The notes under the pieces: generated by a model | Seen by the model: the letters and a program-made list of their open reading frames with translations, nothing else | The model's database searches: none | Told to the model about the DNA's origin: nothing | Position numbers and translations under genes: made by a program | In this document: in pieces, positions 18,759 through 19,939 of the stretch | Position numbering within the stretch: the first letter of the stretch is position 1 | Layout of the letters: every line of letters starts with the position of its first letter | IMG/VR virus record: IMGVR_UViG_3300035698_002437 | Span: 1 to 20,628 of that record | Reading direction: 5' to 3' (one strand) | DNA: 20,628 nucleotides | Origin: a virus

Positions 18759-19203
18759 CGATTTGGCCTCCGCTGGCGTTCATATTGAAAGTGACCTCGA
18801 GAGCCTCCTCTGATTCCTCTGGCGGCTTGACTATCCATCCGAGCTTTGATTGGATCCAGTATATTTGTGCTCGGACTTTTCCCTGCATGGCGTTCTGGTA
18901 AAGCTTCTGCACCACCTGAGCATTCATAATATTGTTCGCCTGCTCGATCTCATCCTTGAAGTGCTTATAAAATGTTCGGGTTGATATGGTTACGCGATCG
19001 GGCTTTCGCTCCATGGATAATATCTTACGAACATCATCTTGCTTGATGCCCGTAGAGATCATCATTTGCACCATTTTACGATCTTTATCCGTGGGCTCGA
19101 AGGGTTTACGGCCTGCGCCTGTTCTCTTGCCCCCGCCTCGGTTTTTCTTTTGCTTTTCTGGTTTACTCGCCGGAACCAGATCTTTGTTGTTTGATTTTTT
19201 CAT
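18733..19203 (-). CDS. Terminase small subunit
   Basis: A 156-residue protein from the ATG at 19203-19201, chosen because AAGGCGG lies upstream; an ATG at 19251 would add 16 residues (MLYWFKTQMAKRRIKI) without a convincing ribosome site. A basic region RGGGKRTGAGRKPFEPT leads into KDRKMVQMMISTGIKQDDVRKIL, a helix-turn-helix of the kind used by phage terminase small subunits. Then comes STRTFYKHFKDEIEQANNI and the C-terminal QIYWIQSKLGW motif. It would recognise the packaging site and load the large subunit. It overlaps the methylase-like gene by 41 bases. Confidence 0.85.
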   Translation of the reverse strand: MKKSNNKDLVPASKPEKQKKNRGGGKRTGAGRKPFEPTDKDRKMVQMMISTGIKQDDVRKILSMERKPDRVTISTRTFYKHFKDEIEQANNIMNAQVVQKLYQNAMQGKVRAQIYWIQSKLGWIVKPPEESEEALEVTFNMNASGGQIDVTPDKVH

Positions 19204-19939
19204 AATCTTTATCCGCCTTTTTGCCATCTGTGTCTTGAACCAGTATAGCATTTTTTTGCGTAAATTCCTGCCATCTTCGAATAATTACATCGCAATAGCG
19301 GGGATCGAGTTCAATAGAAAAGCAGCGACGCTTCATTTTTTCGCAAGCAATCAGGGTTGAACCTGAGCCAGCAAACGGATCCATAACGAGCTGTCCCTCT
19401 TTGCTACTATTGCCGATTAGATATTCAAGCACCTCGATCGGTTTCATGGTTGGATGTACGTCGTTGCGCTTAGGACGGGCAAACGTAAGCACTGTCGTTT
19501 GCTTGCGATCGGTGTTTCCCTCCTCTTCGTAATCTCCGCTTACGCCATCGAATAGCCCCTCTGTATCGAAGCCCCATTCCTCGAGCTCTTCTTGATCGAA
19601 GAACGACTCGATAGCATCGTAATCCCATCCGCCAGTATTGGCATTGGAGCGAATATTATATTCCTTAACCTCTTCGTCGGTCATCATGCGAGAGGGAATA
19701 CGAACGTCGATTTCGTGCTTCTTCCCGAAGACCTCGCAATAGATGCTTATCCGCTGGTGGCCTGCTACGATTAGATTGTCGAGGTTAATGACCGGAACCT
19801 CGGCTTCAGGGAAGCGGCTGATCGAAGCTTTAAGAGCCTCTCGCTGCTGTTCCGATATTTTCCGAGGGTTCCAATCGGCGGGAACAAGGTCGCCCACCTT
19901 GGCGCGGCTGTTCTGAAATGAGAGTTTTTTCTGTGCCAT
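19163..19939 (-). CDS. ParB-like / DNA methylase fusion lacking the catalytic motif
   Basis: A 258-residue protein. Residues 1-110 form a ParB/Srx-like nuclease-type domain (VPADWNPRKISEQQREAL, then IVAGHQRISIY with GHQR at 60-63). Residues about 158-225 match the C-terminal half of N4/N6 methylases (RNDVHPTMKPIEVLEYLI, MDPFAGSGST at 186-195 for SAM binding, SIELDPRYCDVIIRRW). In related phage fusions, usually above 400 residues, a DPPY catalytic motif and about 150 residues lie between these parts. Here residues 131-152 go straight from DYEEEG to TVLTFARPKRN, with no DPPY. Thus methyl transfer is unlikely, while DNA and SAM binding may remain. AAGGA precedes the ATG. Confidence 0.85.
   Translation of the reverse strand: MAQKKLSFQNSRAKVGDLVPADWNPRKISEQQREALKASISRFPEAEVPVINLDNLIVAGHQRISIYCEVFGKKHEIDVRIPSRMMTDEEVKEYNIRSNANTGGWDYDAIESFFDQEELEEWGFDTEGLFDGVSGDYEEEGNTDRKQTTVLTFARPKRNDVHPTMKPIEVLEYLIGNSSKEGQLVMDPFAGSGSTLIACEKMKRRCFSIELDPRYCDVIIRRWQEFTQKNAILVQDTDGKKADKDYEKIKQQRSGSGE

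Follow-up and report, generated by a model that had tools for sequence, protein, structure and literature searches.

A phage ParB-methylase fusion gene that lacks the catalytic half of its methylase

Fusions of a ParB-CTPase fold to an N6N4 methylase are common in phages, the ParB-CTPase fold binds NTPs via its GxxR motif, and small phage proteins composed of ParB only also occur (PMC12704722). In addition, a Wolbachia prophage copy of such a gene has lost its methylase domain through a frameshift (PMC3089641). The gene described here is a new variant of this known family. Like the intact phage fusions (PMC12704722) and intact proteins such as those of a Criblamydia plasmid (L041), L256 and L332, it encodes a ParB fold with GxxR, an acidic linker and the methylase motifs X, I and II, and it is located upstream of terminase genes. 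It differs from them by the absence of ~169 aa, which comprise motif IV (DPPY) and the target-recognition region. With the single-domain phage ParB proteins (phrog_620; L225, L228 and L329), whose ParB sequences are 48-56% identical to its own, the gene product shares the lack of a catalytic methylase, but unlike them it carries a methylase remnant. The Wolbachia wAu prophage gene met2 is likewise a ParB-methylase gene minus its methylase part, although there the cause is a frameshift after codon 92 rather than an in-frame internal loss (PMC3089641).

The gene occupies positions 19163-19939 on the minus strand, which the first-pass annotation did not specify, of an IMG/VR virus fragment, a linear metagenome contig whose 20,628 bases constitute the window analyzed here. 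Its frame runs uninterrupted from ATG to TAA and encodes 258 aa. The 3′ end is overlapped by a putative small terminase gene (18733-19251, minus strand), so designated by its position between the fusion gene and the large terminase subunit gene; its start is either 19251 or an inner ATG near 19203, and its sole match in a PHROG search is phrog_12540, a family of unknown function. TerL follows (17559-18758, minus strand; Pfam Terminase_6N, E 5.5e-6), and then portal, protease, capsid and tail genes. The terminase operon described in the first-pass annotation is present. At the opposite side of the fusion gene, positions 20502-20628 form an imperfect 12-bp tandem repeat of 11 copies at the contig end, which is the likely reason that the assembly stopped there.

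The amino-terminal part is readily recognized. A PHROG search places phrog_620 (ParB) over residues 13-144 (E 2.8e-18), and the structure model of residues 9-102 (19634-19915, minus strand) adopts the ParB-CTPase fold (ParB/Srx superfamily), aligning to the ParB-CTPgammaS structure 7bnr with a Z score of 13.5 and an rmsd of 1.6 over 90 residues. The GHQR sequence that had been noted at residues 60-63 (19751-19762, minus strand) is the GxxR P-motif of this fold; conservation of its G, H and R among intact relatives is 94-100%. The label 'DNA-binding' that had been attached to the protein seems less apt for this domain. Specifically, no Pfam or PHROG match to a helix-turn-helix domain, as found in canonical partition ParB, was obtained after the CTPase fold, and the matches of the model to ParB chains mostly stop at residue ~102. 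Because no helix-turn-helix was found, the domain is better called a ParB-CTPase (nucleotide-binding) fold.

What remains of the methylase is the carboxy-terminal half of a beta-class N6/N4 enzyme (residues 142-232; 19244-19516, minus strand). It follows an acidic linker at residues 134-145, predicted with low confidence in the structure model. The Pfam match to N6_N4_Mtase (PF01555) is restricted to profile positions 159-219 of 221 (E 4.6e-20), and phrog_498, a methylase C-half family, covers residues 140-251. All three SAM-side motifs are present: motif X as HPTMKP (residues 162-167; 19439-19456), motif I as DPFAGSGST (residues 187-195; 19355-19381) and motif II as ELDPRY (residues 210-215; 19295-19312), each on the minus strand. 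This methylase end, of ~90 residues, had been recognized from the same three motifs.

Motif IV and the target-recognition domain have established roles in beta-class enzymes. The earlier statement that the protein contains no DPP(Y/W/F) motif is borne out, since a search with [DNS]PP[YFWH] finds none in the 258 aa, while all seven full-length comparators aligned with the window protein carry DPPY. The methylase N-half profile has no match in the protein either, and the target-recognition region is missing. Nor did tblastn (best E 0.21) or a motif scan locate the missing half anywhere else in the 20.6-kb contig; a six-frame scan of the window for DPPY-like motifs gave scattered chance matches only, without methylase context. 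At the junction (19508-19522, minus strand), alignments place the absence of ~169 aa, from motif IV through the target-recognition region. The linker of the intact proteins L256 and L261 has the sequence 'DDGYEEE(V/L)PDEPKTKPGDIY', and their C-half starts again at 'WY(S/N)NRKQTTLLKFDRPQRNAEHPTMKP'; the window protein reads 'SGDYEEEGNTDRKQTTVLTFARPKRNDVHPTMKP'. The gap relative to both of these proteins is 169 aa, or about 170 residues rather than the 150 first estimated. Without motif IV and the target-recognition region, the window protein probably cannot methylate DNA by itself.

The absence is clean, as the first-pass annotation had stated, and no decay is visible in what is left. Of 26 near-invariant residues the remnant retains 25, and its average identity is normal. 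From this it follows that the loss is young, if the remnant is neutral, or that this half is still constrained, if the loss is old.

To what extent do relatives dispense with the methylase? The relatives came from eight viral-contig scans, a single scan of genomes from bacteria and archaea, and searches through phage and plasmid records; their ParB ORFs were sorted with three profiles, one for ParB and one for each half of the methylase. Among 395 distinct ParB ORFs, 291 have both methylase halves, 96 are ParB alone, seven have only the start of the N-half, and one, that of the window, has the C-half without the N-half; in a non-redundant set of ~340 ParB ORFs the corresponding numbers are 246 with both halves, 86 without methylase and again one with the C-half alone, all drawn from a ranked selection of matches rather than a census, such that the proportions are indicative only. 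A rough FastTree phylogeny of the ParB domain (112 columns) calls for at least 52 changes between the fused and solitary states, compared with 75-83 when the labels are shuffled. ParB proteins without a methylase are common in the same clade, and thus the methylase part looks dispensable.

The window's truncation was found in no diverged relative in the viral, bacterial/archaeal, phage and plasmid scans. No two diverged phages among the fetched relatives share such a deletion, and no deletion variants were seen among 398 genomes of the phylum of bacterial genome G024, as judged by match and frame lengths only. A DNA-level relative of the packaging region was not found in the phage collection. 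Several candidates proved to be full-length. IMG/VR pattern scans for GHQ with HPTMK 270-331 nt further on returned only full-length proteins, matched via an inner GHQ, and L119, Funu1 (L039) and others whose tblastn matches appeared to span the junction are full-length with DPPY.

The clearest parallel is L367 (IMG/VR 3300025889_000430). Compared with its intact sister L408, this gene is short of 99 aa, DPPY among them, and the loss is exactly in frame; the flanks on both sides have 96% protein identity and 90% DNA identity. This pair comes close to proving that in-frame losses occur in the ParB-methylase family. As in the window, TerS and TerL follow the gene in that order, and the 35-kb contig of L367 has no other PF01555 protein. 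L367 differs from the window gene in that only 99 aa are lost, the region around the target-recognition domain is kept and the ParB lineage is another one. Of the changed codons on the L367 branch of the C-half, 12 are synonymous, one is nonsynonymous and 13 are unassigned, a pattern that could reflect either recency or constraint. A further gene, L249, has apparently lost ~215 aa and keeps the first ~20 and last ~30 residues of the methylase, the match to the tail being weak (E 4e-4 to 6e-3). The ends of the window, L367 and L249 events differ, and therefore the three are independent. In a separate contig, L441 (2968-6208), a ParB without methylase that is ~87% identical to the L367 ParB precedes a gene with the P-loop-like sequence GASGSGKT; next come TerS- and TerL-like genes that closely resemble those of L367.

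The catalytic half of the window gene is absent, the remainder is intact, and the methylase has been lost repeatedly among relatives. We consider it reasonably probable that methylation was lost while ParB function was kept, and that the C-half is a recent leftover. Under this scheme, the phage ParB-methylase fusion family frequently loses its methylase part, and here an in-frame event would have removed, or never brought in, the half with DPPY and the target-recognition region, giving a product that by itself would not methylate. Selection would keep the nucleotide-binding ParB domain, in which GxxR is retained and which other phages carry alone, and the methylase C-half may be a recent leftover whose decay is yet to come. 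The retained function would then reside in the ParB part, which might act on phage DNA as a clamp or switch controlled by nucleotides and is encoded in the packaging operon. Some observations stand against this scheme. The 25 retained residues would be expected also if the remnant were in use, and the conflicting affinities of the ParB part and the C-half argue against a plain deletion, in that a ParB-alone gene could have captured a fragment.

Could the truncation instead have arisen in the computer, through an assembly or strain mixture, such that a gene intact in the real phage appears in the contig with its two ends joined? The window is a linear IMG/VR metagenome contig with a 12-bp tandem repeat at its end, and a second contig with its junction was not found in the scans. 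However, a collapse needs a k-mer common to both ends, and the ends of the comparable L367 breakpoints share only two bases; the L367 sequence is moreover 100% identical over 6.8 kb in two separate records, perhaps from one sample. The window junction also keeps the frame. An assembly collapse is unlikely for this contig.

A second alternative is that the protein is a functional pseudo-methylase, whose motifs X, I and II would retain SAM or SAH binding and which would act as a SAM-tuned ParB clamp or as a decoy or marker on phage DNA. The three motifs are complete, nearly all of the near-invariant residues are in place, and residues 168-235 are modeled as a three-strand half-Rossmann fold with pLDDT values mostly of 84-98. 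This predicted half aligns to CcrM, M.BceJIV and RsrI, and it matches the SAM-side half of M1.HpyAVI-SAM and RsrI-sinefungin. Its confidence derives from the alignment of intact proteins, however, and does not prove that this half can fold by itself; a single-sequence model made without the alignment reaches a mean pLDDT of 34 and is useless. Loss of the motif IV strand would also expose an edge of the central sheet, and no diverged relative was found to share the truncation. The first-pass annotation had proposed a new use of this kind for the truncated form, as a sensor, marker or decoy, and this proposal is unsupported. The losses in L367 and L249 and the common methylase-free ParB proteins weigh against it, and a literature search found no paper on inactive phage methylases as sensors. 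We therefore regard a working pseudo-methylase as improbable.

Partial capture is slightly less plausible still. Here a ParB-alone phage would have gained a C-terminal methylase fragment by illegitimate recombination, and its lineage would never have had an intact fusion. The nearest ParB relative of the window, L225, is indeed ParB alone (56% identical), and the best relatives of the C-half (64%) carry distant ParB domains (27-28%), such that the affinities of the two parts disagree (correlation -0.45). The GC3 difference between the halves (0.14, top 6.5%) points weakly in the same direction. This discordance is nevertheless general in the clade, where domains are shuffled, and the intact L246 shows it too. 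Furthermore, the linker end YEEE resembles that of the intact L256 and L261, and plain deletions do happen, as in L367. Among the intact proteins L332 comes closest when both parts are considered, but with identities of ~56% in ParB and 58% in the C-half it is no close parent, and so a deletion and the capture of a fragment look alike.

A more elaborate version of the pseudo-methylase idea, in which the truncated protein is a SAM-responsive ParB switch, an NTP-binding clamp regulated by SAM or SAH on the half-methylase that marks or times packaging, with such pseudo-methylases arising repeatedly, is very unlikely. Finally, a split methylase, with a DPPY half from another phage gene complementing the remnant in trans, is the least credible, since no N-half was found in the 20.6 kb examined of this incomplete contig, even though C-half-only PHROG families (phrog_23085 and phrog_18293) and predicted viral proteins of 64-129 aa that match the C-half alone do exist.

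Returning to loss of methylation with retention of ParB, the window gene is mainly of value in showing how frequently the methylase disappears. In this common phage fusion the methylase part appears dispensable and has been repeatedly lost, with the nucleotide-binding ParB kept, which suggests an independent role for the ParB domain in the terminase region. Some genes annotated as 'DNA methyltransferase' by a C-terminal match may be inactive. L367 and the intact L408, given the identity on either side of the missing segment, form a natural pair with which to gauge the contribution of the methylase half.

Other departures from the usual gene were encountered among the relatives. In L098 (1427-2821) and L161 (1831-3324), full-length ParB-methylases that are otherwise intact, DSPY replaces DPPY. 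Tandem ParB-methylase-type genes are present in bacterial genomes, as in L156 (161-1630 and 2026-3321, the second with DLPY for DPPY) and G024 (C2 36000-37513). The replacements in L098, L161 and L156 are motif variants and not deletions. In L251 (3971-5272) a stop codon separates the ParB and methylase parts, the latter with DPPN, and in L111 (1592-2845) the ParB-methylase gene lies in two frames, apparently through a frameshift.
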